Shown: positions 1 to 52,235 of the stretch, piece after piece
Layout: each line of letters begins with the position of its first letter
How positions within the stretch are numbered: position 1 is the stretch's first letter
NCBI GenBank assembly: GCA_029204225.1
Contig: CM055095.1
Location: 76,774,471-76,838,470 of the forward strand
Direction of reading: 5' to 3'
Origin: Diphasiastrum complanatum
Taxonomy: Eukaryota > Streptophyta > Lycopodiopsida > Lycopodiales > Lycopodiaceae
Length of the DNA: 64,000 nucleotides
Notes under the pieces: model-generated
Databases searched by the model: none
What the model was told of the DNA's origin: nothing
The model's input: only the letters and a program-made list of their open reading frames with translations
Position numbers and translations under genes: made by a program

Positions 1-2400
<2,400 letters not shown>

Positions 2401-2424
2401 CATACATAGAGCATACATACTACT

Positions 2425-3240
2425 GTTTGGTCTCATCTTGATTCTTCACGAGTTAAGCTTCAGTTCTACCCCATTCACTTTCTTCACTTGGATGCTTCAG
2501 GGCTTCCCGTTAGACCAAGTTATCTCTCTCAGCCATTGTCTTTTGGCCTGCGCTACCGCATAGGTCAGCTTCGTGTCTCTTCACATCAGCTTGCTATTGA
2601 GACCGGCATATACATAGACATGCCACGATCATTACGGATCTGTCGGTGCTGTACATTGCAGGAGGTTGAGGATGAGTTTCACTTTATTTTCTTATGTCCA
2701 GCTTACTATGAGATCAGAGGCAGATACCACTGTTTCTATCGGGACACTCCACTCACGCTTGGTTCCTTCTTTGCCTACTCAGATGCAGTGTTGTTTTACT
2801 TTTGCGAGAATTGTTCTCCTTGAGATCTTCACTTATGTCAGCCAACCACATATTACACTTTTCTTTCAAAAAAGAGTTAGGGAGGATACTTCTGATAGTG
2901 AGATTGACATTCCAGCTCGCCGACAGAAGCTCCAACGTCTTCCTCGACCATCCAGAGTTCGTCATCAGAGGCCACCATGTGCCTCACACCAGATCACACA
3001 GTTTTTCTCTTTCAGTTAGTGAGTTTTATTCCTCTGCGTAGCTGATGGTTAAGCTACTGCTTTTGTACCCTCACCATAGCTGGAGGTTAAGCTTTGGTTT
3101 TATTTCCAGTTTATTTCTGTTTTTTTAGCTTTAGTTGATAAAAAAAAGTCCAACATGGACAATGCTCCTTTCTGATGTAACTTTTCTTTGTCTTATGTGC
3201 CTAAGGGCACCCGATAGACATTAATATATTCTATTCTATT
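2425..3240 (+). mobile_element. 5'-truncated LINE 3' end (subfamily A)
   Basis: It contains the last part of ORF2: HLDASGLPVRPSYL, SFGLRYRIGQLRVSSHQ and the Cys/His motif RICRCCTLQEVEDEF. A frameshift follows near 2790. The 3' UTR has the TTAAGCT direct repeats at about 3054 and 3087, hairpin GTCCA-ACA-TGGAC at 3148-3160, hairpin GTGCC-TAAG-GGCAC at 3197-3210 and AGACATTAA at 3216-3224. It ends in (TATTC)n and short CT. Confidence 0.9.
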
Positions 3241-8084: not shown

Positions 8085-8284
8085 CTGAAAAATTTGCATA
8101 AAGTGAATATACAGTTATTAACACTAGAGAACAAATACAAGATAGAAAATCCAAAAACTTGAGATTAGATTCGCAAATGCATTCAAAAATATATGTAACA
8201 ACTCTCTCTCATAATGAGACCAAAAAACAACTACACCATTATGACTAGACACAACATTTCCAAGCTCTATGGGACCATCATACA

Positions 8285-8600
8285 AATAGCAGTGAGAAAT
8301 GAGGCTAAAGCCTCAAGAATGGCATGCTTATGGACAAGGGGGTTCAAGGCACATCATTAAAACTCACATCATATATTCACTCGCAAAGCAATTATTGAGG
8401 AGGAAAATTTCTAGTAGATAATCAACTACCACTTTGTGGAGTTCAAATAAGACCTTTCATTATGTAAAGCACCACATGCTCATCCAAAGGTTGATGGATC
8501 GAAATTTTTCATCTAACATGGAGTTGGCTATCATGGCACCTACTGAGCAAATCATGGGGTGCTTCAAAACAAATGAGGGCTTAGCGCAATGGATTGACAA
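8285..8600 (+). mobile_element. highly degenerate LINE RT fragment
   Basis: The translation still aligns with RT: a KAIIEE segment, HMLIQRLMDRNFSS, LAIMAPTEQIMGCF and EGLAQWID. Several stops interrupt it. It is much more decayed than other copies and so probably older. It abuts a minus-strand LINE at about 8705. The gap 8085-8284 shows nothing. Confidence 0.7.
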
Positions 8601-8704: not shown

Positions 8705-10022
8705 CCCTAATCCAAATATAGTGGGCCCGACCCAAGGCTGAAGGAAGTTTCGGACTAAGCAGGCCACCCCACCTGACCCTCGGTCTGTCAATGCTCTCGT
8801 AGCCCTCTGATGTGCAAAGTACCAACAAAAACCCTCAATGGCCGGTAGTCCCCTCAAAGGGCTCTCATGTGTCTCTGTGAGTAATAAGATATCGCCGTCC
8901 GTACAAAAATCTCTAAAATCCCCTGCTATAGCTGAAGAGTGAATACCATTGCAGTTCCATAAGCTCAACCGCAATGCCTTAGAAAGGGCCCCTGAACCGC
9001 TCCTAAGTCCGGGGGGCCCGAATCCCTATTTCTCATATTTCGGCAGGTCAATGTATCGAGCCTTACCATCCCAATATATCACCCTCTTTCCCAAAACTTT
9101 TGCATCGCTAAATGCTATCTTCTGGTCCGCAACCTGCATGGGGGTGAGATCATCATCCATTAATATAAGTGTACCTCCGTCATTCTTCCAAATTTGTGAA
9201 GCGAACAATGAGTGTAGAGAGGTCTCTCTTGGTTCTCCAAGCTCTTTCCAATCCCTCGGAGTGGAGGGAAAGCGTACTTGAAAGAAAACTGGTTACTTCG
9301 GTTATTGGATCAATGGTGTCTTCAATCCATCGTACCCTAATGTCATGGATTTGTACTCTCGCATCTTCTCTTCAGATATGGTAGCTGAAATGACACTATT
9401 AAAGGAGGGTGTACCTATTGCCATCTTTGAAGAGAGAAGCCCACGTCTTTGTCTCAGCTTTGTGTTGCTCAATCTTCTCTTCCAATTCTTGAATCCTTGT
9501 AGAGGTAGAGATGGCTGGCTCTCCTGGCTTGCTTATTGCTGCCTCCAAAGAAGTAATCTGGGCTAGCTTGGCCACCCTTTCGATGGACAGAAATTGAATG
9601 GTCGCTTGAAGCCGTCCCATTTCTTTCCGTAGAGAGCTATTTTCTCGTTTGACCTGTTCAATGTAGGAGAGAATGTACTGTTCAAAGGATTTAGTGGGCG
9701 TGTATAGATCTCAGGAATAGGTAAGATAGGAGCAGTACCAGAGGGTGGAGAAGAGGGTGAGCTAGGATTGGAAGCAAAGCTGATAGGGATAGGAAGGAGC
9801 CCAACAGTAGCACGAAACAACATGTCATCATTAGAAGTGGAAGCAGAAGTATCCGGCAGCAGTATGGAGGTGGCAAACAGCACTGCCACATCATCATCCG
9901 AGGTGGCAGGTAGGGCGGCAGGCAGCCCTGCCACATCATCCAGGGCGGCAGGCAGGACCTTATCCAAACGTCAAGGAGGAAGGACGTCAATATCAAAGGA
10001 TTCGTCATTGGATACAAGAAGC
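8705..10022 (-). mobile_element. LINE 5' half: ORF1, TAG junction, endonuclease start
   Basis: Reading leftwards, ORF1 starts near 10022, where LPPPM matches the start context of the full-length copy. Then come the shared YTPTK motif, a coiled coil (RENSSLRKEMGRL and EELEEKIEQHKAE-type heptads), WASLFKDG, and an RRM end with MDDDLTPMQ and KARYIDLPKYEK. A TAG at 9028-9026 is followed in the same frame by 17 codons and the endonuclease start LRLSLWNCNGIHSS with TETHES. Frameshifts disrupt the N-terminal half of ORF1. ORF2 is cut at about 8705. No ATG lies between the TAG and the endonuclease. Confidence 0.88.
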
Positions 10023-13826: not shown

Positions 13827-15466
13827 TAATATCAGGTGATAAATCAAGGTAGGGTAAACCTGTGCCCTCAGCAAAGAGACTCTGGAGGAAAATAACATGT
13901 CGCGACAAAGAGGTCCCTATCCAAACCAATATCCTGTCCAACAATATGAATCCGGATATAACGTGCATGCTCGTCGTGTTTGATGAACTCGATGCTCGGA
14001 TGAAGACATTCCTTGTATAAGCATGCAACCCCCCTCCAGATCCACGACCACTAGCTGATCTAGTCTCAGGTCTGTATACGGAATCCCATCGGTATCCTGG
14101 AAAAATAGGTAATCCTCTCTCCTAACTCTCGTGAGTCTCCATAAAAAGCAATAAGTCTCTGCTAGTGATGAAATCAATCAGGTCTCCAGCCATGGAAGAT
14201 GAGATGAGTGTATATCATCACAGTTCCATCTCCAACCCGTAGATGGTGTGGATGGGGTGCCGGGGCACTCCAGAACCCGGGGACCCCAAGTCCCTAGCAC
14301 TAAGAACTGCGTGGGGCGTCATCAAGGAAACGCGCTGGGCCATCCCGGGAGATAACACGTCTGCCTGACTCCCGGGCTGTTTGAAAGGCCTTGCGCCTTT
14401 CATCCACCTGGATATATGTGAGGTCATCATCCATAAAGATAGTAGTGCCTCGGAGCTTAGCTCTACATTGTAGAGCATCTCTGCGGCTCTATAGGGAGGT
14501 GAAGCGAATAATAACTGTAGCTACATATCTGATGGTCCTCCATGCAGTGTCAAACCCATCAGTCTTATGTCCTAGAGTGGTGTCGAAAAAACGTCTAGCC
14601 TCTGATACTGCATCCTGGGTGTCCGGTATCCTACGAACTCGAATATTATGGGCTTTGTAGGCCCTTGCTTTTTCTTCCGTAATAGTGGCTGAGATGACCG
14701 ATGAAATGGAGGCGCTGGGTTTGGTGCCTTTCTTCAACACAGAAGCCCAAGAAAGCTCCTCTTCTTTTTGCTTTTCAATTTTCTGCTCCAGCTCCCGTAT
14801 CATCATGGTAGCTGACTCCGAACTTGCAACCTGCTTGGTAGTGATTATTTGCTCTAATGAGACAACTTTGGACTGCAGCACATTCTTTTCCTGGATCAAG
14901 GAGACCACTATTCCCTGTAGGTGTGAAATTTCTTGCTGCAAACGCTGGAAATCTGCTTTGAATTGGTCAATTTCCCAGGAAGAGAAAAGTTTGGTGGATT
15001 TGGAGGGAGTGTATGGGATGTGAGTTGTAGATGAGAGCATTGTAGCTGCTTGGGAACTAGGAATGGGAAGAAGTCCATCAGTGGTATTTAGAGCAGAATC
15101 TGAGGTAGAAGAAGATGAAGGAGCAAGGATGTTAGAAGAGGCAGGAGGGGTAGAGCTGCCTGGTGGGACTAGTGTAATGTGACAGGCTGCCCTACCTGCG
15201 TGGCAGACAACACATCCACATATGTAGCAGTCAGTGAGGGTGGAGCGGGTATAGAGGGTATGGTAGGCAGCGAGGGTGGATCTAGGGCAGGTGCAAGAGC
15301 AGCCTCCGGCGAGGCAGAAGGGGAAATCTCCAGCGGGGCAGAAGGGGCAGCTTCCAGCGAGGCAGGCGAAGCATCTTCCAGCGAGGTGACGTCCAGTGAG
15401 GCAACAGGTGAGGTGGCGCCCAGCGAGGCAGGTGAGATGGCCCCCTTTTTACTACGAGGCAAGGCG

Positions 15467-15469: not shown

Positions 15470-15536
<67 letters not shown>
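15470..15536 (+). repeat. (GA)n microsatellite between two minus-strand LINEs
   Basis: A pure GA run. In minus sense it is (CT)n lying between the 3' tail of one LINE (right) and the 5' end of the next (left). Confidence 0.97.
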
Positions 15537-15538
<2 letters not shown>

Positions 15539-17231
15539 AATTGTCATTTTAATGCTTAAAAGCATTTAAGACAAAATAATACATCTCAAGTGTGATAGTC
15601 TATGTAGGAGCATAAATATGTCTCCCAAATCAAACTCAGAATAAACTAGAGTATATCAATCATAAAACTACTCTATGATCGTCTAAAAGAACTATGAATG
15701 AAATCTTTGCATGAAAAAAAGTACCACACCTGATACAATGATCAATACAATGAGCTATCATGTACCTCATGGCCTAGGGGGAGGGGAATGGGAGCTCTGC
15801 TGAAGTCGTCCTTTGATCTCATAAACAGTACATTTGAATAGTAGATGTTCCTCAAACTCCACCTCGTCTAGTGTACATAACTGACAGATCCTGCTCTCAC
15901 GTGTGGGATCTCTTGAAAACGTTCTCTCCCATAATTACCACGAACCGTGGTTTGAATCGTTCAGAGCCTGTTCGAATTGGTTCAAACTGGACATACCGGC
16001 CCGATTTGAATCGGTCGATTTGAATTGGCTGTGGCCTTGCTATCTCCACATATAATTGAAGAAACCTGGAGCTGTCCCAAAGTAACCGCCATAAGCAATG
16101 TGAAAGACCAATATCCAGGTACCGAGGTACTCCCATAATCTAGCTCAAACAAGTGGGAGCGATATACGTCTAGCTTTATTCCAAGAAATCCTTGTCATGT
16201 CTACTATACGTATGCTCTATAAACAAAGCCACGTATTTACCGATGAGAATTTCACGGGAACTCTAAAATAGTCATACCATATGTGCATAGAAGACCAGAG
16301 GTCTAAAATAGTTGTCTGTAAATGTGAATACTGGCTTATTCTGACTCGGGAAGGACCTCTGTAGCATACATGAATATAGGTGAGACCATAGTATCAAATA
16401 ATCTACACTTACCAAGGGTAATCCGAATATGCTTCCTGAAGTAGAAGTGCTCAAGACTGACCAGGGACGCATGACCTTTCCTCAACCTGACAACAATATA
16501 GGTGAGACCATAGTATCAAACAATCTCTAATGGCTGACCATTGAAAGTAAAAATCGTTGCATATAGGACCTAGAGGTGTTAAAGATCATGATCTGGGTCT
16601 TTCTGGCATAAACCGACAGACCCCATCTCTCCCCAAATGAGTGTAGTCTATTCAAATGTCTTTGCAATCCTTCCACTATAGATGAAGTTAGTGCCACGTC
16701 ATCCACATAATCAAGTAAAGATAAGAATGTTGTCAAGTCTACAGTCGATGCTACACTGCTCATCAATGATACGATCAAGCTCGTTGATATATAAGCCAAA
16801 GGGTATGGGGGAGCGAGAGCAACCTTGCTTCACCCTAGTAGTACTCCTTACCAATTGGGAGAAACCCTCACTTGTCCTAAAACAAACCCAGACCTGCTCA
16901 TCGAGTGCCATAACTACAAGTATTGTATCTATAGCGAACCCAAGCTCGCTCAATTTTATATAAGGACGTTTCACAAGATTTAGTCAAATGCCTTCCAGAA
17001 ATCAACAACGCAGTAATACACTATCTCATGCTTGGATCTAGCCTCCTCAATAATAGCCCCGAGTGTGAATACATGGTCAATAGTAGAATGCTGAGCTTTG
17101 AAACCTGCCTGACCCAATGCATGTAGTTGCAAAATCTCTGCCTCACAACTCACTGTTGTCTGGAGAATGGTGCCATACACTGTCGCCACAATATTGCCTA
17201 TCATGATAGTGCCATAATTCTCGGGATTCAT
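15537..17231 (-). mobile_element. 5'-truncated LINE ORF2 with complete 3' tail
   Basis: It starts in the RT N-terminal part (ENYGTIMIGNIVATVYG, GFKAQHSTIDHVFTLGAII), then TRVKQGCSRSP, YVDD (variant of YADD), and the thumb region to VPRYLDIGLSHCL. About 140 bp of GGTTCGAATTGG-type palindromic sequence (about 15915-16055) interrupts it, probably an inserted MITE. It resumes with ESRICQLCTLDEVEFEEHL. The 3' tail carries hairpin ATGCT-TTTA-AGCAT (plus 15552-15565) directly before (CT)n. It is frameshifted in several places. Confidence 0.87.
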
Positions 17232-17247
17232 TGGGTCACTTGTGAAT

Positions 17248-17311
17248 AGGAGGGATGATGTTGCTAACTCATGTGCCTCAGGAGGGATGATGTTGCTAAC
17301 TCATGTGCCTC
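17248..17311 (+). repeat. 32-bp perfect tandem duplication
   Basis: The unit starting AGGAGGGATGATGTTGCTAA occurs twice without a mismatch (17248-17279 and 17280-17311), next to the LINE 5' end. Confidence 0.95.
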
Positions 17312-19163
17312 CCTCAGCTGAAGAAAATACTCACCACATAGAGTGGTCAGACCATCAGCATCAACAGATATCCTGGGAATACCAAAGTCATCACTATCCA
17401 GTATATGTAAAAATGTCAAATCTTGGTCAAAATGGAATATTTTGTTTGGATCTTTACGTTCTAAACAACTTCATGGAACTTTATGGTTTGCCATTGGATA
17501 CCTTTTTGTCAACATATTACACTTTGAACTCTGACTTTTTGGCAGCTTTTTCACAACCTGTTACTTGCTGGTTGTTTTGTCACACTTGGGCTACTTACTT
17601 CCTTGGTGCTCTGTTTGCTGGACATTTTGGCTGCTTCTTCACAATTTATCATTTGTTAGATTTTGTTGTTGTTTAAAAAATCTCTAGGTTTTTTTCTCAT
17701 TACATTTGTTTTCACAGTTTAGCTACCCAAGGGTGACCAAAAAAAACCAAGCGATAGGTGGAGAAGCTGTCAAAATTTGTGAAGCAGGTAGGGCGCCACA
17801 TTGAAGTGTAATATCTTGAGAAAGAGATATCCAATTGGCGAGCTGTAAAGTGCAATGAACTTGTTGAGAAACGAAGAACATAGAGATCCAAAAACAAAAT
17901 CTTTCAGAATCGAAAACATAATATTCCAATTTGACCGGGATTTGACTTTTCAAAAAATTCACTTCTAAAAGGTCAAAATGGATAGAAAATCAATCTTAAG
18001 GATCAAAGAACATAGTAAATAACAAGATCCAATCACATATTCAAAGAGAAATGAAAAGAAGAAGAAAAAAAGTTACCCTTTTTGAAAACTTTGCAAGATC
18101 GATCACATTGTTTTTTTTGTCTTGTTTTCTTTAGTTCGTTTTAGTTTTCCTTAGTTTGTTTTAGTTTTCTTTATTTTGTTTTAGTTTTCTTTAATTTGTT
18201 TTAGTTTTCTTTTTATCGTCATTTAGTTTATGTTTGCTTAGTTCGTCTTGTGCCCTCTTTGTGCATCATTTACCTTTTATTGCGTTCATTTTTCGATTTC
18301 TTTTGTTACTAGTAATTCGTTAAGTTCCCATTTACGCTTTCATATTTTACGTATTGCATACGTTTCATTATGGATATTTGGTTCCAATTATCTCAATTAC
18401 GAAAAGAATTTGCATTTGTTTCGATTTGACGGTATTTGGGTGCTATGGTGACACTGAATTATCAGATTGGTTAAATGCATTCATTTCTTGTTTCAAAATT
18501 TATCCACATTCTGTAATGAGGCCTCAAACACTATGCGTCTTAAAATCAACAAGGGCAATGCATCCTTGGTCTTGTTGTCCATTTTACATTGAACTCACCC
18601 TTTTTAAAGGTCCTTCCTTACTTTGAAACAACATTATCGCAACACATGGGCACTTATATAAAAAATAAACAAGGTTTCATCACTAATCCTTAGTGGATCA
18701 ATCCTTTATAGAACATTATGTCATCGATAAACTTTCATGGTAGACCTATCATGACCATACTCAATATGTCAAAAAAAGAAGTAACCATACATAAGTGTCC
18801 CTACACATGAGTTGTTCATCAAAGTGTCGCTAGAAATGAGTTCATCATCATACATCACCAAAACAAAAGCAAAAGGCATGTGCATTCATAAGTGTAATAA
18901 CCATCCAAATACTTATCATTGAAGCACATAACATCATCGAAGTAAATAACATGCTATATAAGCAAATTCTTCCAAGTTCTTTAGCCTACATGCAAAAGCA
19001 AGATAAAATATGTACATAACATATTGGGTAACACGTAAAGTTTCCAAAAAGAAATTCAAAACTTGAGGTTTAATGGCTCTAGTGAAATATCTTAAGGAAT
19101 AGACAATGTCGAGTACCACATAGAGTTATTGAATTTATTCGATTGAATAAAAAAAGGAAAGAC
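17312..19163. other. intron DNA without recognised gene; small TTTAG-rich minisatellite
   Basis: No supported coding sequence. Positions 18121-18215 hold about four imperfect repeats of roughly 22 bp containing GTTTTAGTTTTCTTTA. The remainder is AT-rich and unrecognised. Confidence 0.5.
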
Positions 19164-20274: not shown

Positions 20275-22333
20275 CATTATCCGTTTCACTTCTCTAGAGA
20301 GTCATCGAGATGCTTTGCGGTGCAAAGCTAAGCTTCGTGGCACCACGAGGCATGCCCCTTTCCAAGTCAAGCAGTGCTATCTATCCCATACTAAATATAC
20401 GACCAATAAAAAGTACCCCTAGATAAGTGTAGGATGAAACTATCTCCAAAGTCTGATCGTCAAAGATAAGTATCTGTCGTTGCATGAAAGCCCTAGATGT
20501 CGTGAAGACCATAAGTTTGGTGTTCGCAATGTTCACCCCCAACTCATCTGAGACAAAAGGCATGGAGACAGTCCAATTGTCTTCGTAGACCCTCTCTAGT
20601 CGAGGAGACTAGAACCAAATCATCTACATATAGAAAAATGGCAATCAATATATCACGTAGTCTGCATCCTGTGTTGCATATGGATGACGACCTCACATAT
20701 ATCCTGGTGGAGGAGAGGCGTAAGGGCTGCTGGCAGACGAGTCATTTACCGAGATGGACGAGTGTGCTTTCTTGATAGTGCACCTAGTAGATCCCAGTGC
20801 TAGGGATTTGGGGTGCCCGGGGATGGGAGCACCCCGGGGCCCCATCCACACCACCTTCGGATTGGAGTGTGGAATTGTGCTGGCATACACTCATCTTCTG
20901 CGGCAGGGGACCTTGTTGATTTTATTACAGATAGAGATATATTATTCTTCATGGAGACACACGAGAGCCCGGAGCAAGGACTTCCTTCTTTTCCTGGATA
21001 CAGATGGGACTCAGTATTCCGACGAGAGACTAGATCTGCTAGTGGACTAGGTTCAAGTGGGGTCGCCTGCTTGTATAGAGAGGCTCTTCATTCGAGTATT
21101 GACTTCATCCGACATGACGAGCAGACCGCTACATATGGACTCACATCGTGGGTCAGAATATTGGCTTGGATAGAGATCTTTTCATTGCAGCATGTTACTT
21201 TCCAACAAAGTCCTCATCTTTTGCTGAGGGTATTGGATCTCCATATCAGGACCTCTCACCAGATATTATCAGATTCTCAGAGCGGGGGCATATTCTCCTC
21301 ACAGGGGATTTTAATGTCCGGACATCTTCACGAAAGACAGAGTTCTTCGACATCACTGATCAGCTATGTGTTCCTGCCCTGGACAGTGATATGCTTGGAG
21401 TTACCAGGACCTCTGCGAACAGTCTGGGACCTACTACTTCATATGGTATTGGTCTCACCGACCAGAGAGGGTCTACAGCGACAGTTGGATTGCTTGCATG
21501 AGTTTTGTACCAGATGGGGCCTAGGGGTGAACATTGGGAAGACCAAGGTTATGGTCTTGAAACACTTCGAGAGCATTCAGACAGCGACAGGAGCTTACTT
21601 TGGGTGGGCAGGTTCTAGAGGTGGTCCATTCCTATACATACATGGGGGTCCTTTTCTCAAGTCCTACTTTTAGCATGAGACAGGCCGCTACCACTCAACT
21701 GGGGAAGGGACATGCTTCCCTTGTTCAACTAGAGCGATTTTGCTTCCGGAAATCCATCTAGGATTCTCGCAGTAAGTGTCGCCTCTTTGATATCACTGTT
21801 ACTCCCACGGCTTTATATGCGGCAGAGACATGGTGTACAGGTCTCCCTTCTTCACACCGGGCCAGTCTGTCACGATTACAGACCACCATGCTACCTCAGT
21901 TGATTCGAGCGAAGCCTTTTGTTTCACATGAGATTCTCCTGGTCGAGTTTGCAGTTCCACCTGTACAGATCGAGGCAACTCTTCAGCTCATCACCTTTAT
22001 ACAGAGGATACAGGCGTTACCAGAGATAGACAGGCGATACATACAGGTTGCACTATCCTCTTCACAACGTCTTCACGAGCAGGCTACAGGTTATCATGGT
22101 TCTCTCAGGCCTCTCACCTCCTACTTGCGTCATTTGGCATCTCCATCACAGAGCTCCCCTCAGGCACACATCAGTATATCAGACGCTTCCTCTATCGCAC
22201 ATATCTAGAGGGGACTTGGCATAACTAGTTAGGGGTTAAGCCAACTTTCTACTAGACTCATTTCTTGGAGCTAGATGCATCGGGGACCCCGGTCTTGCCA
22301 CGCTACTTGGACTCGGGATTGTCACTCTATAGG
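20275..22333 (+). mobile_element. LINE with ORF1 end, endonuclease start and large internal deletion
   Basis: It begins in the ORF1 RRM (RFTSLESHRDALRCKAKLRGT), is interrupted at 20346-20679 by an opposite-strand LINE piece, and resumes at MDDDLTYILVEERRK. TAG at 20801-20803 is followed in frame by HHLRIGVWNCAG, METHES, GVACLYRE and LTGDFNVRTSS of the endonuclease. At about 21448 the sequence jumps from endonuclease TTSYG straight to RT position VLVSPTREGLQRQL just after YADD, dropping the endonuclease end and most RT motifs. The thumb region follows to DSGLSLY, where the element is cut at 22333. Confidence 0.88.
20346..20679 (-). mobile_element. nested LINE RT fragment, opposite strand
   Basis: The minus frame gives GCRLRDILIAIFLYVDDLV, STREGLRRQL, TSRAFMQRQILIFDDQ and SSYTYLGVLF. 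It splits the ORF1 of the surrounding plus-strand LINE between AKLRGT and MDDDL. It could be an insertion or an inverted piece from rearrangement. Confidence 0.8.

Positions 22334-32227: not shown

Positions 32228-32280
<53 letters not shown>
32228..32280 (+). repeat. (CT)n microsatellite at LINE 5' end
   Basis: A pure CT run ending exactly where the next LINE fragment starts. Confidence 0.97.
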
Positions 32281-32282
<2 letters not shown>

Positions 32283-34305
32283 GTTCTATCCCAACTCCAC
32301 GAACCTCATCTCTCTCCTCCATCGACCGTGCTCCCAGATTCACCTTCGCTCACCCTTACATCGAAAGTTACCAGGAAGCCCTTGCCTCTTTACTTCATGA
32401 CTTCCCACATGATACTACATTAGAGTCACAAGCTCATTTCCTTACCACCTCACTTCATACAACTGCCTCGGTTTCCTTTCCATCCACACCCCACCGTCAA
32501 GCAATCACACCAGCTCGTCCTCTTCAGCCTCCATGGTTTGATGATGAGTGTCATTCACTAAACCTCCATGTTACACATGCATGTACACATGATCCACTTA
32601 TTCTTGGCGAGCATTTATCCCTCATACTCCACCCCCTCTTCTTGATGACCTACATGTATGGTCCACCTATGCTACCTCACTCTACACCATACCTACTGAC
32701 TCGCCCATTTCCATCTCCCCCCGTCCTAGTGAATTCACCTTCTTCACCTCCGAAATGGTCACTAAGGCCATAAAGAGAATGAAGACCCACCGCACTAGAG
32801 ACATAGAAGACCTTGAATCGGAACTTCTGATTCATGCGACATATCTACTGTCACCCACTCTAGCCACTCTGCTTAACCGTGTTGTCGTCTCTGGCTTCCC
32901 CAACTCCTGGTGCACTAATATCATCCACCCCATCCACAAAAATGGTGACCCCGTGAATCCTGGTAACTACCATACTATCATGATTGGCCATTCATAGTGA
33001 AGCTTTATGGTGCTATACTTCAGTCAGCGATCAGTTCTGAGGCTGAGACCAAGAGACTACATGCATTGGGCGAGGCTGGCTTTCGGGCTCACCATTCCAC
33101 CACAGATCATGTCTTCACCCTTCGAGCTATCATTGAGGAAGCCAGGCATAGCAGACAAAGGGTTTACTGTTGCTTTGTTGACTTCAGGAAAGCCTTTGAT
33201 TTTGTTCCACGCTTTCTTCTTATAGCGACTACATGATCTTGGCTTCCCTACTGACACAGTTCTAGTTGTGATGGCACTGTATGAGCGAGTCCTTGGATGT
33301 TTCAGGGTGACATTGGCCTCTCAGAGCACATATGGAGTACCATCAGGGTGAAACAAGGTTGCTCCCTTTCACCTACACTATTCCGACTATATATTGACGA
33401 GCTTGAGAGGATCATTGAGCAGCGCAGTCGTACGCGAGCGGTGGTACAGGTTGCAGACTTGGGGATATCCTGATTGTCATTCTCCTATATGCAGATGATA
33501 TTGCTTTAGTCTCCTCGACTAGAGAGGGACTACAAAGACAGTTGGACAGTCTTCATGGTTTCTGTACTAGGTGGGGTTTGCAGGTCAACACTGAGAAGAC
33601 CAAAATTATGGTCTTCAACACATCCAGGGCTTTCATGCAGCGACAAGAGCTTTTTCTAGATGGAAAGCCGTTGGAGATTGGGACATCCTACACCTATCTC
33701 GGGGTCTTTTCACTGGTCCTATATTCGATATGAGACATGCAGCTACAGCCAGACTTGGGAAGGGACAAGCCTCCTTGGTCCAGCTTGAGCGTGTCTGCTT
33801 CCAGAGATCTGTTCGGGATGCCCCAAGTAAGTGTCGACTATTTGATAGTTTTGTCTCTCCTATTGCACTGTATGTCACAGAGACACGGTGCCCAGGACTC
33901 ACCTCCACTGATTGGGCCAGTATCTCACACCTCCAGGTCCTTATGTTATCACGGATGATATGGGCTAAGCCCTTTGTCCTGCACCAGATTCTCCTAGCAG
34001 AGTTTGCAGTTCCACCTTTATAGCTTGATGTCATCTTCCATCTCATCATATATATACAACACCTCCAGCTACTTCCCACTGATGCACAGAGATATCCACA
34101 GGCGGCACTCATATCATCTCAGCACCTCCACAGTTTCGGTTATCACTTATCATGGTTCTCACAAGCAGCACATCTATTGGATACATTTGACATATCTATT
34201 ACGGACCTTCCAATGGGTACACATGATTATATCATACGTTTCCTACAGAGGACACCTTCGCCACACATGGCAAGGTCACTTAGGGGTGGAGAAACTGCAA
34301 ATCCG
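32281..34305 (+). mobile_element. 5'-truncated LINE ORF2, frameshifted
   Basis: It starts in the endonuclease-RT linker (PWFDDECHSLNLHVTHA), then FTFFTSEMVTKAIKRM, NSWCTNIIHPIHKNGDPVNP, GFRAHHSTTDHVFTLRA, FVDFRKAFDFVPR, RVKQGCSLSP and YADDIALVSSTREGLQ with an intact catalytic box. The thumb region runs to FDISITDLPMGTHDY. Frames change near 32995, 33230, 33310 and 33440, and a TAG lies at 34021. The C-terminal Cys/His motif and 3' tail are missing. Confidence 0.92.
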
Positions 34306-37404: not shown

Positions 37405-38088
37405 CTGCAAGAAAACAGATCATTGTTAGAAGCCTTGGAGAAGCATGCCATCTACATTTGAGATGTAACTATTAAGCACAGAAATAGAAATTGTTTTAAC
37501 CATTTCACAGCAATATATCAATCATTCACACAACAAAAAATGCAATGTTTCGTGGACCTTTGTGAAACGCCTTTTCGAAAAAGATTTGAAACGGATTTGA
37601 AATAGAAAAGAATTGACAAATTGGTTTTAGGGTTTTCTTTTAGGGGGGGTTTCTAGCCTTCTATTATGGCAAAACAAGTGTTTTTTTTTAGTATTGAGGC
37701 CACGATGTAGATTACAATTAATCAACGATCAATCTTGAATCCTAACTCGGAGTCGGAACTCTCGAGTCCCACCTATTGTCATGATCCATAGTAAAAATCG
37801 TAAATCTAACACTAGTCTCACACTAATTAGTAATCACACACTAATCTAGATTCAATTATTCAACACTAACTATTGATGAGTAATGATTGATCATAAGTGC
37901 TAACACACTAATCTTAATAGCACCATTAACTTCTAGCTTCTAACTTCTCTCCCTCACACTCTCTTTCTCTCAACTTTCAAATTTCAAGCACATTCTAGAT
38001 TCTAATTTATGATTCATCTCATTCCCTACACTCACACACTCCCTCACACAAAAAGACTATTACTAAACACACACAACTCAACTCTCTA
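37405..38088. other. intron DNA with MITE end and simple sequence
   Basis: 37544-37610 has CAATGTTTCGTGGACC and GAAACG words like the MITE family. 37790-38088 is rich in CTAACA, CTCTCAC and CACACA words. No gene. Confidence 0.45.
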
Positions 38089-38089
38089 T

Positions 38090-39110
38090 ATATATTGATG
38101 AGCTTGAGAGAGTCATTGAGCAGTGCGGTGATACAAGTTGCAGACTCGGTGACATTCTGATTGCCATCCTCCTGTGTGCAGTTGATGTGGCTCTAATATC
38201 TATGACTAGAGAGGGTTGTTAGATACAGTTAATGTTCACATTATTACCCCTAATGTTGTCATTTAGGATTAATTAGGATTATTGGACCATGCCTACGTGC
38301 TAATTCTAGGGGGCCTTTACCTATATTTAGTAAAAGCCAAGTTAAGACTATAGTCAGACAAGTTCGAGATTCTAGTGCTTGATTTAGAGCACAAGTTTTT
38401 GCTATAGATAGGTATTGGTGCTTTTACCATATATAGAGACATTAATTAGGCAATTGTTTTTAGGCTGCTTTTACTTTTGCTTTTGGCATAGCCCAAGTCT
38501 ATAAGTATGTAGTGTGCCCGCCCAAGCTCATTTGCAATGGGACATAGTTGGAGTTTCTCATCACTTCTGTTCTCTCTCATGTGTTTAACTATTGTCTTAC
38601 AACAATAGGAATCTTGTCTTGGGTAACTTGTATGAGCAAGACGGTTTTCTAACAAGGGTCTAAAGAGGGAGCTAGACAATCTTCGTGATTTTTGCACCAA
38701 ATGGGGATTGGGGGTTAATACTAATAAGACCAAGATTATGGTCTTTTGTTTACTTGACACAGTTGGTATTTCTATTATGGACCTCCCACTAGGCACTCAC
38801 AACTACATCAAACGGTTCCTATACAGAGCATATCTGAGTCGTGCATGGCAAGGCAACCTCGGGATCAAACTCGACTACTGTCATACTCACTTTTTGGAGT
38901 TCGATATCGCAGGGTTCCCAACTCTACCACGCTATTTGGACAAGATACCCCATGGGAGGAGCGGATTTGCCAGATGTGTTTGTTATTAGAGGTAGAGTCT
39001 GAGGAGCATTTCTTATTCAGGTGTCCAGTATACTATGAGATCAAAGGGAGATATCATTGTCTTTTCCGAGATGCACCTATCACACAGAGGTCCATTATAA
39101 TTTAAATCAT
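38090..39110 (+). mobile_element. LINE fragment with nested solo LTR and internal deletions
   Basis: The RT part (YIDELERVIEQCGD, GDILIAILLCAVDVAL, where YADD has become CAVD) is split by the LTR at 38217-38654. It continues LDNLRDFCTKWGLGVNTNKT and TKIMVF, then jumps to VGISIMDLPLGTHNYIKRF and LPRYLD, then jumps again to PWEERICQMCLLLEVESEEH. Two deletions remove thumb segments. There is no 3' UTR. Confidence 0.88.
38217..38654 (+). repeat. solo copia-type LTR with 5-bp target duplication
   Basis: TGTTAGATAC...TTCTAACA, 438 bp, flanked by AGGGT at 38212-38216 and 38655-38659. The flanks rejoin into the LINE sequence ACTAGAGAGGG-T-CTAAAG. It results from LTR-LTR recombination after insertion into the LINE. 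Confidence 0.92.
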
Positions 39111-39470
39111 GGACATTTCAACATGGAAAAGGGAACAACTATATGTAGGGTAGGAATTAGCTATCGAAATTGACAGAAGACAAATATCAAAATGGATAAC
39201 AAAATTTGCAAGATATGTAACAATGGAGAAATGGAGGACGAATCACGTGCTTATCTTTTGCCACAGATATGATGACATTACATAAAAGCATAACATGCAA
39301 CATTTGGAACCAAATAACATGTCTAGTTTATTTGAGAAACTAGCTAAGTACAGTGAATCCTTTCAAAAAGAGATCTTTAGCATGTACAGAGTAAAGCAGC
39401 AGCTATTTGATGAATTGTTGTTTTGTCCCACAAGTCCCAATGGATCTCCAGTTGCAAATGATAAAGCATT
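39111..39470. other. possible ancient retroelement tail, mostly unrecognised
   Basis: A short peptide KICKICNNGEMEDES at about 39200 resembles the Cys/His motif of LINE ORF2 but lacks the His. Nothing else is recognised. Confidence 0.3.
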
Positions 39471-39514
39471 TCTCTCTCTCTCTCTCCCCCCCCCCTCTCT
39501 CTCTCTCTCTCTCT
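39471..39514 (+). repeat. (CT)n microsatellite at LINE 5' end
   Basis: A CT run with a short C11 interruption, ending at the start of the LINE endonuclease fragment. Confidence 0.95.
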
Positions 39515-40314
39515 AATTCTCCCTCCATTTGCGAGAATTTTTGGGGGTTGCCTCAAGATCTCTTTATAGCAGTTTGTTATTTTGCACCTCAGACATCAGC
39601 TTTTGCAGACTATGGTGGTGACCCGTTTCAGTCTCTTTCAGATAATATTGTCAGTTATGCACAGCAGGATCTTATTCTACTAGCAGGTGATTTTAATGCT
39701 CGCACCAGCACCCATCAGACAGTTTTATGCAGATAGTGATTTCCTAAAGATTCAGGCTTTGGACATGGGTTTGGACAGGACCTCTCAGGATACAGATACT
39801 CCAGCTACACACTTTGGTGAACAGTTGATTGGACTAGCAGAAGCTCATTCTTTAGCCATTCTGAAAGGCCTATATCGTTGGCCATCATCATCAGGTTTTA
39901 CTTGCCATCCTCACGGAGGTGGACACAGCGTTGTTGACTACTTCATTGGTTCACCGGCCTTGATTCCATTTCTTCATACTCTTCATATTATGCACCCTAC
40001 CATCTCTGATCACTCTTTATTGCTCCTGTCCCTTGGCCATGCTACTCCTGGTTCTATTACGCCATCTCCCACCCGCCGCTACCATCCTTCTTTCTCTCCT
40101 CCTGGTCTTCCTTCATACACTTCCTCTTTAACCACACTGCTCCAGATCTTCCCCTTCTCATCCTCAGTAGACCAACAAGCAGCCTTTTTATCTCAGTCGC
40201 TTCTTCACTCAGCCAATACTGCATATCCACCAAAACGCACTTATAATAGATGGTATGATGATGAATGCCTCTCCCTACACAAGCAAGTTGTTCACGCTCA
40301 ATACCATTCTGCTT
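39515..40314 (+). pseudogene. LINE endonuclease fragment
   Basis: LPQDLFIAVCYFAPQTSAF, LLAGDFNARTSTHQT, a short frame change at about 39728, LDMGLDRTSQDTDTPATHFG, HGGGHSVVDYFIGSP and TISDHSLLLLSLGH. These are the AP-endonuclease motifs with the catalytic GDFN and SDH. The linker follows with YNRWYDDECLSLH; its Trp codon is the one changed to a stop in the full-length element. It is cut at about 40314 by an antisense copia gag. Confidence 0.92.

Positions 40315-45049: not shown

Positions 45050-47466
<2,417 letters not shown>

Positions 47467-47517
<51 letters not shown>
47467..47517 (+). repeat. (CT)n between two LINEs
   Basis: A CT run after the tail of the left LINE and immediately before the GC-rich 5' end of the full-length LINE. 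Confidence 0.97.
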
Positions 47518-47519
<2 letters not shown>

Positions 47520-47762
47520 CCGCCCTGCTGGTGCGCTGCCCGCCTGCTGGTGCGCTGCCCGCCCTGCTGGTGCGCTGCCCGCCCTGCTAGCGCTGCTGTC
47601 CTCTCTCTCTCTTGCGCGCCCACCCGCCCTGCTGGCGCTGCTGTCCGCCCTGCTGGCGCTGACCTTCGCACCTGCCCTACGCTGCCCTACGCTGGTCTGC
47701 GCTACTGCGCTGCTACGCCTGGCCGTTTGTCTACACTGTCCTCCATCTGCTTACCGCCTCCT
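47518..47762 (+). promoter_or_regulatory. LINE 5' UTR with GC-rich tandem repeats
   Basis: About four copies of a 20-22-bp unit with core CCCTGCTGGTGCGCTGCC (47521-47590), then related GCCCTGCTGGCGCTG units. It probably contains the internal promoter expected of a full-length LINE (inference from LINE biology). Confidence 0.6.
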
Positions 47763-48683
47763 ATGGCACCTAAGAAAAAGGGGGGTGTTCTTACACCCCC
47801 CTCCCTGTTGGACACCCCCCCATCACCGGTAGTGATGGAGGAGCCGTCTTCGGTGATAGAAACTAGTGACATTCCTGTCAACATGGCTGCCATTGACTAC
47901 ACTCCTTCCAAACCTACCGAAAGTCTTTTTGCTTATGATCTTAGTTTTATCCGACAAGAAATTCTTGGACTTAAGAAACAACTACACCTCTTTGAAGCTG
48001 AAAATAGCAAGTTAGCTAAGGATCTTTTTGGTGTCACGGAACGTGTGGAGCAGCTTGAGCAAGAAAATATATATCTTAAGCAACGAATTGCAGAAAAAAG
48101 TGCCTTGGAGGAGACTTCCAACAAGATCAATAGCTTGGAGAAACAAGTCGAGGAGACGAAAACGTGGGCAGCACTCTTCAAACCGGATGATATGGGCAGC
48201 AAACTCTCATCACTCGCAAAACAGGTTGAAGAAACGACATCGATCCTTAAGCAAGGTAATCACTCTCAGATTTCATCTTTTCCGAAGGAAAACGATTTGG
48301 AGACAGTTTTGGGTGAACAAGCCAGAAGGGCCAAAAAAGCCTTTAACATTAGAGTAAGAGGCATTGCCAATGGTGGAAAACCGTTGGAAGAAGCTACGGA
48401 TTTGCTCATTTCCAAGTTATCTCATGTGGATGATGGTTTTGATATTGCTTGGCATAGTAAATTTGATGACAATGTTTTGTTTATCAAGTTCCGCTCGCTT
48501 TCACAACGCAATGCTGCCCTTCGGCTTAGGGCAAAGCTTAAAGGTACTTTCATTTATATGGATGATGACTTAACAAATACTCAATGGTTGGCAAGAAAAA
48601 AGATTATCCTTGAAGCGAAAGAGAAAGGGCAAAGGGTTGTTTTTATTGACGGGAAACCGAGATTTTTCAACCTTCCACAATAG
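47763..48683 (+). CDS. LINE ORF1 protein (coiled coil and RRM)
   Basis: 306 residues from ATG 47763 (MAPKKKGGVLTPP). About residues 45-60 carry YTPSKPTESLFAYDL, a motif shared by all copies. About 60-145 form a coiled coil with a Leu/Glu heptad pattern, then WAALFK. About 205-300 form an RRM-like domain: AFNIRVRGIANGG, DDNVLFIKFRSLSQRNAALR, GTFIYMDDDLTNTQW, GQRVVFIDGKPRFFN. Such proteins bind LINE RNA and form multimers. The frame is open throughout. It ends at TAG 48681-48683, and ORF2 continues in the same frame. Confidence 0.88.
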   Translation: MAPKKKGGVLTPPSLLDTPPSPVVMEEPSSVIETSDIPVNMAAIDYTPSKPTESLFAYDLSFIRQEILGLKKQLHLFEAENSKLAKDLFGVTERVEQLEQENIYLKQRIAEKSALEETSNKINSLEKQVEETKTWAALFKPDDMGSKLSSLAKQVEETTSILKQGNHSQISSFPKENDLETVLGEQARRAKKAFNIRVRGIANGGKPLEEATDLLISKLSHVDDGFDIAWHSKFDDNVLFIKFRSLSQRNAALRLRAKLKGTFIYMDDDLTNTQWLARKKIILEAKEKGQRVVFIDGKPRFFNLPQ

Positions 48684-48731
48684 GAACTAGGGGCCCCCGG
48701 ATATAGAAGCTACCCGAGATCCCCTACCAAT
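48681..48731 (+). promoter_or_regulatory. conserved TAG readthrough-like junction
   Basis: CAA TAG GAACTA then GGGGCCCCCGG. The 16 codons after TAG are open and in frame with ORF2, with no ATG. The same arrangement (TAG, 6 nt, G-run opening a potential stem) occurs at 9028-8974 and 14296 (minus) and 20801 (plus). I infer that ORF2 is made as an ORF1-ORF2 fusion by stop-codon readthrough. Confidence 0.65.
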
Positions 48732-51700
48732 TTGAGACTTGGCTTCTGGAATTGTAATGGTTTTTTATCTTCGTCATCAGCCGGAGACTTTGCTGATTTT
48801 ATTAGAAAATGCGACATTTTGTTGTTGGCTGAAACTCATGAGTCCTTATATCATCCTCTTCCAAATATACAGGAGTACTCTTGGCATTCTGCTTTTCGTC
48901 CATTTGTTAGGGGAAAAACTTGTCGAGGATCTGGAGGAGTAGCTTGTTTATACAGAGACACCACAGTTCAGATGGTTAAACAAGATCCATACGCCCGCTA
49001 TATTTGGTTACACATTATTGGCTCACTATTGGGATTACCTCAGGACATCTATATAGCTGTATGCTATTTTGCTCCACAGACCTCAATGTTTGCTGAGTTT
49101 GGCGGGGACCCTTTTCAGGCTCTCTCAGATGATATTGCTATCTTTTCTCAGCAGGGTTCCATTTTACTAGCAGGTGATTTCAACGCCCGCACAAGCTCTA
49201 GACAAACCGAATTTCATGCAGCTACGGATCTTCTCAGGCTTTACCCTTTGGATATGGGGCTAGACCGGGTATCACAGGATGCAGACACTCCAGCTACATC
49301 TTTCGGGGAGCACTTGATCACTCTAGCAGAGACACACGCTCTTGCCATTTTGAATGGCCTCACACAGTGGCCTTCCTCATCAGCATATACATGCTATCCT
49401 CATGGTGGAGGACATAGTGTGGTCGACTACTTCATTGGATCACCTGCTTTGATCTCTCACATTTCTGATTTCTCCATTACACCCCCTACCATTTCCGATC
49501 ACTCACTCTTACACATCTCACTTGGTCACATAACCTCTTCTTTGCAAGTTTCTTGCTCTCTTCCCACTCATAAACGTATTCCTTTCACCCAATCTGGATT
49601 CACTAATTACACCACAATCTTATCCCAACTACTCGCTAACTTCCCGTTCATGGCACCAATTGACCAGCAAGCCACTTTTCTCTCTACATCCCTCTTAGCT
49701 GCTGCTTCCTCATCCTTCCCCACCAAAACGACATCATCACACAGAAGTGTTCACAACAGATGATATGATGCAGAATGCCGCTCTCTTCACAATCATGTGA
49801 CATATGCCAGGTCACACTCCCCTGCCACACTCAAACAATGCCAGAAAGAATATCATAGAACCACCAGAACAAAGAAGATCAAGTACCTACAATCACTCTG
49901 CCAAAAAATGATCAACTCTTTAGATTCACCCTCCTCCTCTTTTTTCTGGAAACATTTCACCAGACACTCTTCAACATTGGCCCCCATAGCCATCGAATCC
50001 TGGATCGAGTATGCCACGGAGTTATATACCACGGACTCTCCTCCTACCTCACTCTCACCGAGACCTGACCACTGCTCACTTTTCACCCCTGACATGGTTG
50101 AAAACGCCATTAAACATGCCAAACTAAATAAAGCCACTGACTATGACTCCTTAAGTGTAGACTTCCTAAAGCCCGTAGCACATCTCATCTCCCCTTACAT
50201 TGCTCATGTTTTTAACACAGCTGTTACTTCTGGTTTTCCTACGGCTTGGTGTACTAATATCCTTCACCCCATCCTCAAGGCAGGTGATCCCATGAATGTA
50301 GGAAACTACCGCACCATTATGATTGGCCACACTCTGGCTAAGATATATGGCTCTATACTACAGACAGTTACTGGATCTTTTGCTGAAACTGAGGGTTTAC
50401 ACGCTATGGGTCAAGCTGGTTTCAGACCGGGATATTCTACTTCAGACCAGATCTTCATTTTGAGATGCATTATTGAGGAGGCTCGACATCGGAAACAGAG
50501 AATTTACTGTTGCTTTGTGGATTTTCGCAAAGCTTTTGACTCTGTTCCACGACATCTTCTTTTCCAGAGACTGTCTTCACTTGGCTTTTCAGAGGATACT
50601 ATTGCTGCGATCATTACTTTATATGAACGAGTCTTGGCACGTTTCAGAGATGGTAGTGGCTGGTCCTCACAGATACATTCTACCATTGGTGTGAAGCAGG
50701 GTTGCCCCTTATCACCCACTCTTTTTGCACTATATATAGATGACCTCGAGCGGATTATTCGCGAGGAAGGTGGAGAGGGCTGTCCCCTAGCAGACATTAT
50801 TATCCCCATTCTCTTGTACGCTGATGATGTGGTTCTCCTCTCATCCTCTGCAGCTGGTTTACAGAGTCACCTTTCTGCTTTACATCACTTTTGCCAGCGT
50901 TGGGGATTGACGGTTAACCTTAAGAAGACTAAGATTATGGTGTTTAACACCAACAGACAGCATATGAGAGATGTGATTTTCTATTATGACGGGCTACCGA
51001 TTGAGATCGTGACCTCCTACACCTATTTGGGAGTTCTTTTCTCTGGTCCGCTACTCACTTTTCGACCAGCAGCCACCGCCAGGCTCCGCAAGGGGCATAC
51101 CGCTCTTGTGCATATGGAGAGATTTTGCTCTACTTATTATGTGCAGGATCCTGCTACCAGATGCCTACTATTTTCTGCTACTGTCTCCCCAGTTGTGCTA
51201 TATTCGGCTGAGACTTGGTGCCCTGATTTATCACGCGATACATGGAGAGATCTTACTCGTATCCAGATTCTCATGCTCAGTAGGATAATCCGGGCTAAGC
51301 CCTCAGTACCACATGATATCATACTAGCCGAGTTTGCTTCTCCTCCATTAGTTGTTGGTGCTATGTTTCAGATCATCACCTTTCTTCACAGGGTATCAGA
51401 TCTAGATACCTCCAGATACATTGTTGCTGCTCTCACTTCATCTTGTACCATTGCGGATCAGGGAGCCAAGCACTCTTGGTATCGCAGTGTCTCAGCCCTT
51501 CTTCAGACTTGGGGTTTATCCGCACTTGATCTTCCGAATGGAACCCATGCTTATATCAGACAGCAGATCTACCGGAGCTACATACGCACTATATGGCCAC
51601 ATCCTGATCCAGATAGGGTCAAGCTACATTATTATGGCACACATCTTTTACGGCTGGACGTTTCGGGCTTGCCTATTCTTCCAGTTTATCTTACACAGAC

Positions 51701-52235
51701 GCTATCTTTTGGTCTGAGATATCGTATAGGACAGCTTCGAGTCTCTTCTCATCAGCTTGCTATCGAGACAGGTAGATACACAGACACTCCCAGATTGCAG
51801 CGGATATGTCAGCTCTGTTCTCTTCAGGAGGTGGAAGATGAGTTTCATTTCATCTTTCGCTGCCCAGTATACTATGAGATTAGAGGACGATACCATTGTT
51901 TATACCGAGATATTCCCCTCACGTTGAGCTCCTTCCTCGAGTATCCAGACGCTAGATGTGTGGGTCTTCTTTTGAGAGAGATGTATATTTTACGAGCTTC
52001 ACTTCTACCTACGCTCTCAGATATGGATTCCAGTCAGGCTCACATTACTCAGTTCTTCCAGAAGCGAGACAGAGTGGATATTTCGGTTGCGGATTTTGAC
52101 GTCCCCGTCCGAAGATCGAAGATACAGAGAGTTTCGGCTCGATCCAGTGCTACTAGATCTTCATACGCCTCCCACCAGCCTACATCACGACCCACTACTA
52201 CCATCACTCATTACTTTCGGCTTGCTCGTAGCTAG
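48732..52235 (+). pseudogene. LINE ORF2 (endonuclease-reverse transcriptase) with one nonsense codon
   Basis: 1,167 residues counted from the LRLGFWNCNG motif. The AP-endonuclease has WNCNG (6-10), AETHE (33-37), GDFNAR (148-153) and SDH (255-257). RT has NYRTIMIGHTLAKIYGSIL, GFRPGYSTSDQIF, FVDFRKAFDSVP, GVKQGCPLSP and catalytic YADD at about 696-699. A long thumb follows, then Cys/His tail RICQLCSLQEVEDEFHF near 51.8 kb. The only break is TGA at 49761-49763, where sister copies have Trp (RWYDDEC); this equals a TGG to TGA change. Everything else is open. It would nick DNA and reverse-transcribe the element RNA at the nick. Confidence 0.93.

Follow-up and report, generated by a model that had tools for sequence, protein, structure and literature searches.

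The window examined here is a stretch of 64,000 nucleotides from the lycophyte Diphasiastrum complanatum (contig CM055095.1 of assembly GCA_029204225.1, positions 76,774,471 to 76,838,470). It holds four junctions, in copies that we call A to D, between the two open reading frames (ORFs) of an element that by its sequence is an L1-type long interspersed nuclear element (LINE), a non-long terminal repeat (non-LTR) retrotransposon with an apurinic/apyrimidinic endonuclease (APE). As the initial annotation had observed, at all four junctions ORF1 ends in TAG followed by G and ORF2 continues in the same frame, with the TAG at 48681 (A) and 20801 (D) on the plus strand and at 9028 (B) and 14296 (C) on the minus strand. 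The single in-frame stop, without a usable AUG for ORF2, suggests that ribosomes may sometimes read through it.

Organisation of the element

In copy A both ORFs can be traced (Table 1), in keeping with the full-length copy that it had been taken for, but ORF2 is interrupted by a TGA. The ORF1 product was modelled with AlphaFold2 (mean predicted local distance difference test score of 60), which predicts a helix from residue 51 to 138, a beta-alpha-beta-beta-alpha-beta arrangement from 195 to 267, and a helix from 272 to 287 plus a hairpin. The top structural match of this model in Foldseek is the human LINE-1 ORF1p trimer (2yko) with an E-value of 4e-5 and low template modelling (TM) scores of 0.23/0.32. 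The order of coiled coil, RNA recognition motif (RRM) and C-terminal domain in this low-confidence model agrees with that expected for an L1-type LINE; both the AlphaFold2 and the Foldseek results bear on the class of ORF1 only. The endonuclease precedes the reverse transcriptase (RT) in ORF2, which is the L1-type order, and among solved structures the RT is nearest to LINE-1 in a profile comparison, with LINE-1 ORF2p, the human protein being nearest, taking the top four places of 18 sequences (best E-value 2.8e-50).

The junction between ORF1 and ORF2

Re-reading the letters 3′ of the TAG gave GAACTA-GGGG for copy A, GGATTC-GGGCCCC for B, GGACTT-GGGG for C and GGATTT-GGGGTGC for D, as first described, and the residues encoded after the stop are alike at the four junctions (ELGAPGYRS, GFGPPGLRS, GLGVPGFWS and GFGVPGDGS). 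The frame had been said to run open into the endonuclease motif in every copy; LR[LIV] is indeed reached in all four, but WN-C in only three. All four copies carry the pattern, but C has suffered damage: another TAG precedes the stop by two codons, and the frame is lost just after LRVG. At 73% DNA identity copies C and D are closely related, so that the four copies represent about three lineages. The pattern TAGGRAYTNGG occurs four times in the 64-kb window, each time at a LINE junction, with 0.49 occurrences expected over both strands at equal base frequencies; since it was composed after seeing the four junctions, this count gauges how specific the pattern is and does not test it independently. 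Independent support comes from the genome searches and from two distant loci.

No in-frame AUG was found upstream of the first endonuclease motif, WNxNG, in the readable copies A, B and D or in L003, a distant relative described below. This motif begins at residue 22–28 after the TAG, ahead of any in-frame Met: the earliest is residue 50 in D, residue 53 in L003 and residue 97 in A, and the 93 open codons of copy B contain none. Since the in-frame AUGs of A, D and L003 lie downstream of WNxNG, starting there would remove the motif, which by analogy with the LINE-1 endonuclease would hold a catalytic asparagine. The initial annotation had described the run into the endonuclease motif as free of ATG; between TAG and WNxNG this is true of every frame in A and B, but D has one out of frame, as does L003. 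Copy C has no ATG in the first 66 nucleotides after the TAG.

Table 1. Positions in the window of copy A, of the stop codons of copies B to D and of related fragments
Feature	Position	Strand	Evidence or remark
ORF1, copy A, 306 amino acids: coiled coil, RRM-like, C-terminal domain	47763..48680	+	98% identity to O6H91_02G138100, an annotated protein of D. complanatum
TAG ending ORF1 of copy A, proposed site of readthrough	48681..48683	+	one TAG in 150/150 scored genome copies
Conserved 3′ context GRAYTNGG, copy A: GAACTAGG	48684..48691	+	seen at all four junctions in the window and in L003
ORF2, N-terminal part, copy A: AP-type endonuclease after a spacer of 21 codons; earliest in-frame Met at residue 97	48684..49760	+	PF03372 4.5e-15
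TGA inside ORF2, a defect of copy A	49761..49763	+	frame open over 1,400 amino acids or more in 105/150 genome copies
ORF2, remainder: reverse transcriptase, with a Cys/His region at the C terminus	49764..52232	+	PF00078 8.8e-34
Predicted stem 1, copy A, 5′ arm UAGGGG (computed)	48688..48693	+	partner 48721-48726
Predicted stem 2, copy A (computed)	48704-48712	+	partner 48740-48748
Stop TAG, copy B	9026..9028	-	predicted stem pairing 9013-9019 with 8986-8992
Stop TAG, copy C (damaged)	14294..14296	-	extra TAG two codons upstream, later frameshift
Stop TAG, copy D	20801..20803	+	predicted stem 1 arms 20810-20816/20829-20835, stem 2 arms 20821-20827/20841-20847
Other LINE-clade fragments in the window	1-3000, 8214-8595, 16357-17437, 20354-20669, 32240-34254, 38076-40241, 45215-47114		32–75% protein identity

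Retention of the stop across the genome

Copies were counted in the 1.74-Gb assembly using the junctions of copy A, which belongs to a young family, and copy D, from an older one, as queries. With the A junction 150 copies were scored of 11,408 candidates, at 99% identity and with the window copy as the first row. All 150 have exactly one TAG within one contiguous in-frame match, and in 105 of them, counted by eye, the frame across the TAG extends over at least 1,400 amino acids. The 72 nucleotides from the TAG on are identical in 29 of 30 fetched copies, the remaining one differing by a single base.

The D junction gave 150 scored loci of 8,592 candidates, at 81–99% identity. At least one TAG is present in 145 of these and none in five; many copies have further stops, which read as decay. 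The junction codon itself was read in 30 of the 150 rows, one being the window copy and some duplicating each other, and is TAG in 27, AAG in one and GAG in two, which show no difference from each other in the part read. The stop and frame are retained in both families, in the young one among near-identical copies.

Among 31 D-family rows, a ratio like dN/dS (nonsynonymous to synonymous) is, for shared variants, 0.33 in the 21-codon spacer, based on few variants (4 nonsynonymous, 5 synonymous), 0.30 in the start of the endonuclease and 0.66 in the tail of ORF1, while for singletons the corresponding values are 0.62, 0.24 and 0.52; as the rows were ranked by protein similarity all these ratios are biased low. 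The low ratio looked for across the junction is thus seen in the shared spacer variants but not in the singletons, and the counts are small.

RNA structure downstream of the stop

The two perfect 7-bp partners described initially, GGGCCCC/GGGGCCC and GGGGTGC/GCACCCC, are present. A stem starting 4–10 nucleotides after the stop is stronger than in dinucleotide shuffles, with p-values of 0.04, 0.04, 0.33, 0.05 and 0.04 for A, B, C, D and L003 respectively (0.036–0.33 singly), and 0.001 when combined over the five junctions; for the minimum free energy (MFE) the values are 0.11, 0.63, 0.25, 0.04 and 0.03, combining to 0.01. Because C and D are related both combined values are somewhat too good. 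Over 80 nucleotides the MFE z-scores are −0.42 (A), −1.79 (B), −0.63 (C), −2.35 (D) and −0.31 (L003). Taken together, the junctions show more potential for a stem or pseudoknot 3′ of the TAG than chance would give, but this does not hold for every copy. A pseudoknot score also exceeds synonymous-codon randomisation in A (p = 0.01), B (0.045) and D (0.006), though not in L003 (0.21).

The junctions of B, C and D align free of gaps, and positions +7 to +11 pair with +36 to +40 in 15 of 15 cells, whereas shifts of the partner by 1 to 6 positions leave only 1–11 paired. Covariation, proposed as a check on the stem, is seen at one pair, 10-37, where B has C-G and the other two copies have G-C; there are few changes in all. 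We make no claim for the best pseudoknot drawn for copy B, which is doubtful on steric grounds.

Relatives in other hosts

Four LINE-like loci came out of a scan of prokaryote assemblies. The LINE contigs in metagenome-assembled genomes (L001, L002, L080 and L081 from Trichormus and L003 from the bin Cli_8) are probably eukaryotic host DNA binned with symbionts. No usable junction was reached in L001 and L002. L003 has the arrangement ORF1-TAG-GAATTTGGC-ORF2 in one frame, reading TTT TAG GAA TTT GGC, with WNFNG as its endonuclease motif, and is about 29% identical to the window element in the RT part. Near the N terminus of its ORF1 (L003:373-1461) is a motif of the 2A/StopGo type, GDVETNPGP. 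From this motif and the name of the bin the host is presumably a sponge, and judging by its sequence L003 may combine ribosome skipping with stop readthrough.

In L080 and L081, for which the host would seem to be the fern Azolla, ORF1 ends GCG TGA CGG and ORF2 continues in frame. UGA-CGG is listed as a type II readthrough context (PMC3542737). L081 has this context, and the 3′ stem about 8 nucleotides downstream was not found over 60 and 80 nucleotides. By sequence there are thus three host groups in which ORF2 lies in frame behind a stop in a readthrough-listed context, the fern type having an ordinary alternative as well.

No relatives of the element were found in the viral contigs scanned; the motif pattern in two phage-like contigs is, judged by its surroundings, due to chance. 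Searches among plasmids and phages contributed nothing to the present account. Separately, a record named as an Alicyclobacillus plasmid (L007, NZ_CP104070.1, 20280-21350) contains an unannotated stretch that matches LINE reverse transcriptase (28% over 380 amino acids).

Other features of the element

Near the C terminus of ORF2 in this clade is a motif that resembles the PIP box (QxxLTDFF type), which interacts with PCNA (proliferating cell nuclear antigen). It reads QAHITQFF at 52035-52058 and QAQITSFF at 46989-47012 of the window, and occurs in relatives P0002, P0003, P0005, P0009 and P0011 in forms including QRQITDFF, QAQLTDFF, QSQITDFF and QTQLTDFF. At two places in the window, 47460-47520 and 15470-15540, two LINEs of the same orientation stand in tandem, with a (CT)n run after the 3′ end of the first leading directly into the 5′ end of the second. 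This arrangement suggests that CT microsatellites, or the tails of earlier copies, served as insertion sites. Other fragments of the same LINE clade, with 32–75% protein identity, crowd the window, and many subfamilies coexist.

Discussion

The reading that best accounts for the junction, and which we consider probable, is type III stop-codon readthrough giving an ORF1–ORF2 fusion. ORF1 and ORF2 would be parts of one continuous frame, interrupted once by a programmed stop, at which most ribosomes would terminate to give ORF1p and a minority would decode the UAG to give the fusion, aided by the adjacent GRAYUNGG and by a stem or pseudoknot starting 4–8 nucleotides downstream. One RNA would then yield much RNA-binding protein and little enzyme, as with Gag and Gag-Pol. 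The frame, the stop, its context, the retention in the genome and the lack of an in-frame AUG ahead of the first endonuclease motif in the readable copies are observed; from these we infer that readthrough occurs at some rate, with a role for the RNA structure, and that the element works through the fusion.

The type III class comprises UAG, a 3′ G or purine-rich octanucleotide and a 3′ structure (PMC3542737, Table 5). The element has the UAG and, in the four window copies and L003, a G at +1; GRAYTNGG is not purine throughout. The resemblance to gammaretroviral readthrough proposed in the initial annotation is partly borne out: the UAG and its retention in frame, the 3′ context and the missing AUG agree with it, the structure in aggregate alone. 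Low-level readthrough of premature stops has been proposed to give functional human L1 ORF2p (PMC4176336), so that a weak signal could suffice; those stops are chance mutations inside human L1 ORF2, with no junction signal. That a branch of L1-type LINEs, in lycophytes, an animal-like host and, with UGA-CGG, ferns, makes its RT as a readthrough fusion is a possibility that we entertain without favouring it.

Several observations weigh against the readthrough interpretation. As the 150 young copies are near-identical, their TAG amounts to a single state inherited many times, and the young family reflects recent copies rather than long-term conservation. The singleton ratio in the spacer, 0.62, is not low. 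The MFE is weak over 60 nucleotides in B (z +0.32) and C (−0.55) and over 80 nucleotides in A, C and L003. The arm at +7 to +11 pairs equally well with +28 to +32, in 16 of 16 distinct rows, which leaves two competing folds. The sequences had been inspected before the pseudoknot score was designed; against dinucleotide shuffles it gave 0/300 (A), 0.08 (B), 0.44 (C), 0.03 (D) and 0.25 (L003), combined 0/300, where A and D alone stand out. The refuting condition named in the initial annotation, an ORF2 ATG conserved close to the junction, does not hold for the lycophyte copies; the fern-type L081 does have such an ATG, in frame and three codons before WNCNG, and its junction shows no stem (z +0.97 over 60 nucleotides, +0.03 over 80).

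The main rival is termination followed by reinitiation, or internal initiation, with ORF2 having a start of its own, either at a codon other than AUG or through unconventional initiation of the kind proposed for mammalian LINE-1. There are precedents, in that SART1 uses stop-restart with downstream structure, reinitiation is described for LINE-1 too (PMC5972666), and Zorro3 requires its first ORF2 ATG (PMC1965478). The ATG of the fern-type relative would allow such a start, and the predicted proteins of some relatives begin MAAWNCNG or MTLWNCNG. However, A, B, D and L003 have no in-frame AUG before WNxNG, and reinitiation needs neither a shared frame, nor a fixed TAG-GRAYTNGG, nor coding-like change in the spacer; we regard it as rather unlikely, though clearly the strongest of the alternatives. 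It is improbable that the TAG/G is instead a 3′ splice acceptor, such that the spliced RNA loses ORF1 and ORF2 gains another start. YAG/G fits the splice-acceptor consensus and a pyrimidine-rich stretch lies ahead of CAATAG in copy A, but copy B has the purine-rich TATGAGAAATAG and the fern-type relative has GCGTGA, with no AG, and it is for these two reasons that we set this explanation low. Splicing also puts no demand on ORF2 sharing a frame with the end of ORF1, and a LINE translated from spliced RNA would be predicted to leave spliced copies (compare SpIREs, PMC5860796).

The two proteins could also be made separately, with the shared frame due to chance and to descent from an ancestor whose TAG was never lost. 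A shared frame has a probability of 1/3 per independent lineage and only three host groups were seen, yet all six junctions read (the four window copies, L003 and L081) have the same frame, the motif is common to the lycophyte copies and L003, the structure potential exceeds chance in aggregate, and ORF2 would still require a start; this seems to us about as improbable as splicing. Least credible of all is that RNA editing from U to C, or a suppressor tRNA, makes the UAG a sense codon ahead of translation. Such editing of stop codons occurs in the organelles of lycophytes and ferns, but nuclear transcripts are not expected to be edited, and free ORF1p would be lost.

How the second ORF of LINEs is translated is an old open question, with unconventional initiation proposed for LINE-1 (PMC5009743, PMC5972666), whose ORF2 expression is termed probably a novel type of initiation (PMC5009743). 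Among the matches listed in a literature search, no LINE with programmed readthrough between its ORFs could be recognised from the title or start of the abstract, which is weak evidence as subscription journals are thinly covered. If the readthrough reading is true, ORF1p and ORF2p would be joined in a fusion at a set ratio, the enzyme might by this means remain associated with the RNA that encodes it, and a nuclear plant gene would be expressed by recoding. Were it to hold for the whole branch considered above, UAG-GRAYUNGG with a downstream stem or pseudoknot would be either very old or reached repeatedly, and LINEs would have a Gag-Pol strategy of their own. With at least 150 near-identical copies in one genome, this is directly testable by RNA-seq, ribosome profiling and mass spectrometry.

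Compared with other two-ORF LINEs, the element resembles human LINE-1 in the fold of ORF1p and the endonuclease–RT kinship of ORF2p, but human LINE-1 has a 63-nucleotide inter-ORF spacer and an ORF2 AUG (PMC5972666). SART1, which uses a downstream structure, differs by reinitiation and Zorro3 by having its own ATG. Candida Tca2 is a retrotransposon with an in-frame gag-UGA-pol stop and a possible pseudoknot (PMC2194720), but it is an LTR element and the stop is UGA; the UAG-R with extended stem-loop of epsilonretroviruses (PMC3542737) shares the UAG-purine and, as predicted here, a stem, but in an LTR retrovirus. Another close likeness is to the type III signals of gammaretroviruses and Tombusviridae (PMC3542737, PMC4178896), with UAG, an adjacent G or purine-rich octanucleotide and a 3′ structure, the predicted stem here lying 4–8 nucleotides after the stop compared with the 8-nucleotide spacer of murine leukaemia virus (MuLV). 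Unlike in those viruses the signal here is a candidate read from sequence and is carried by a non-LTR retrotransposon, in which, as on gammaretroviral Gag, the enzyme would be a minor C-terminal extension.

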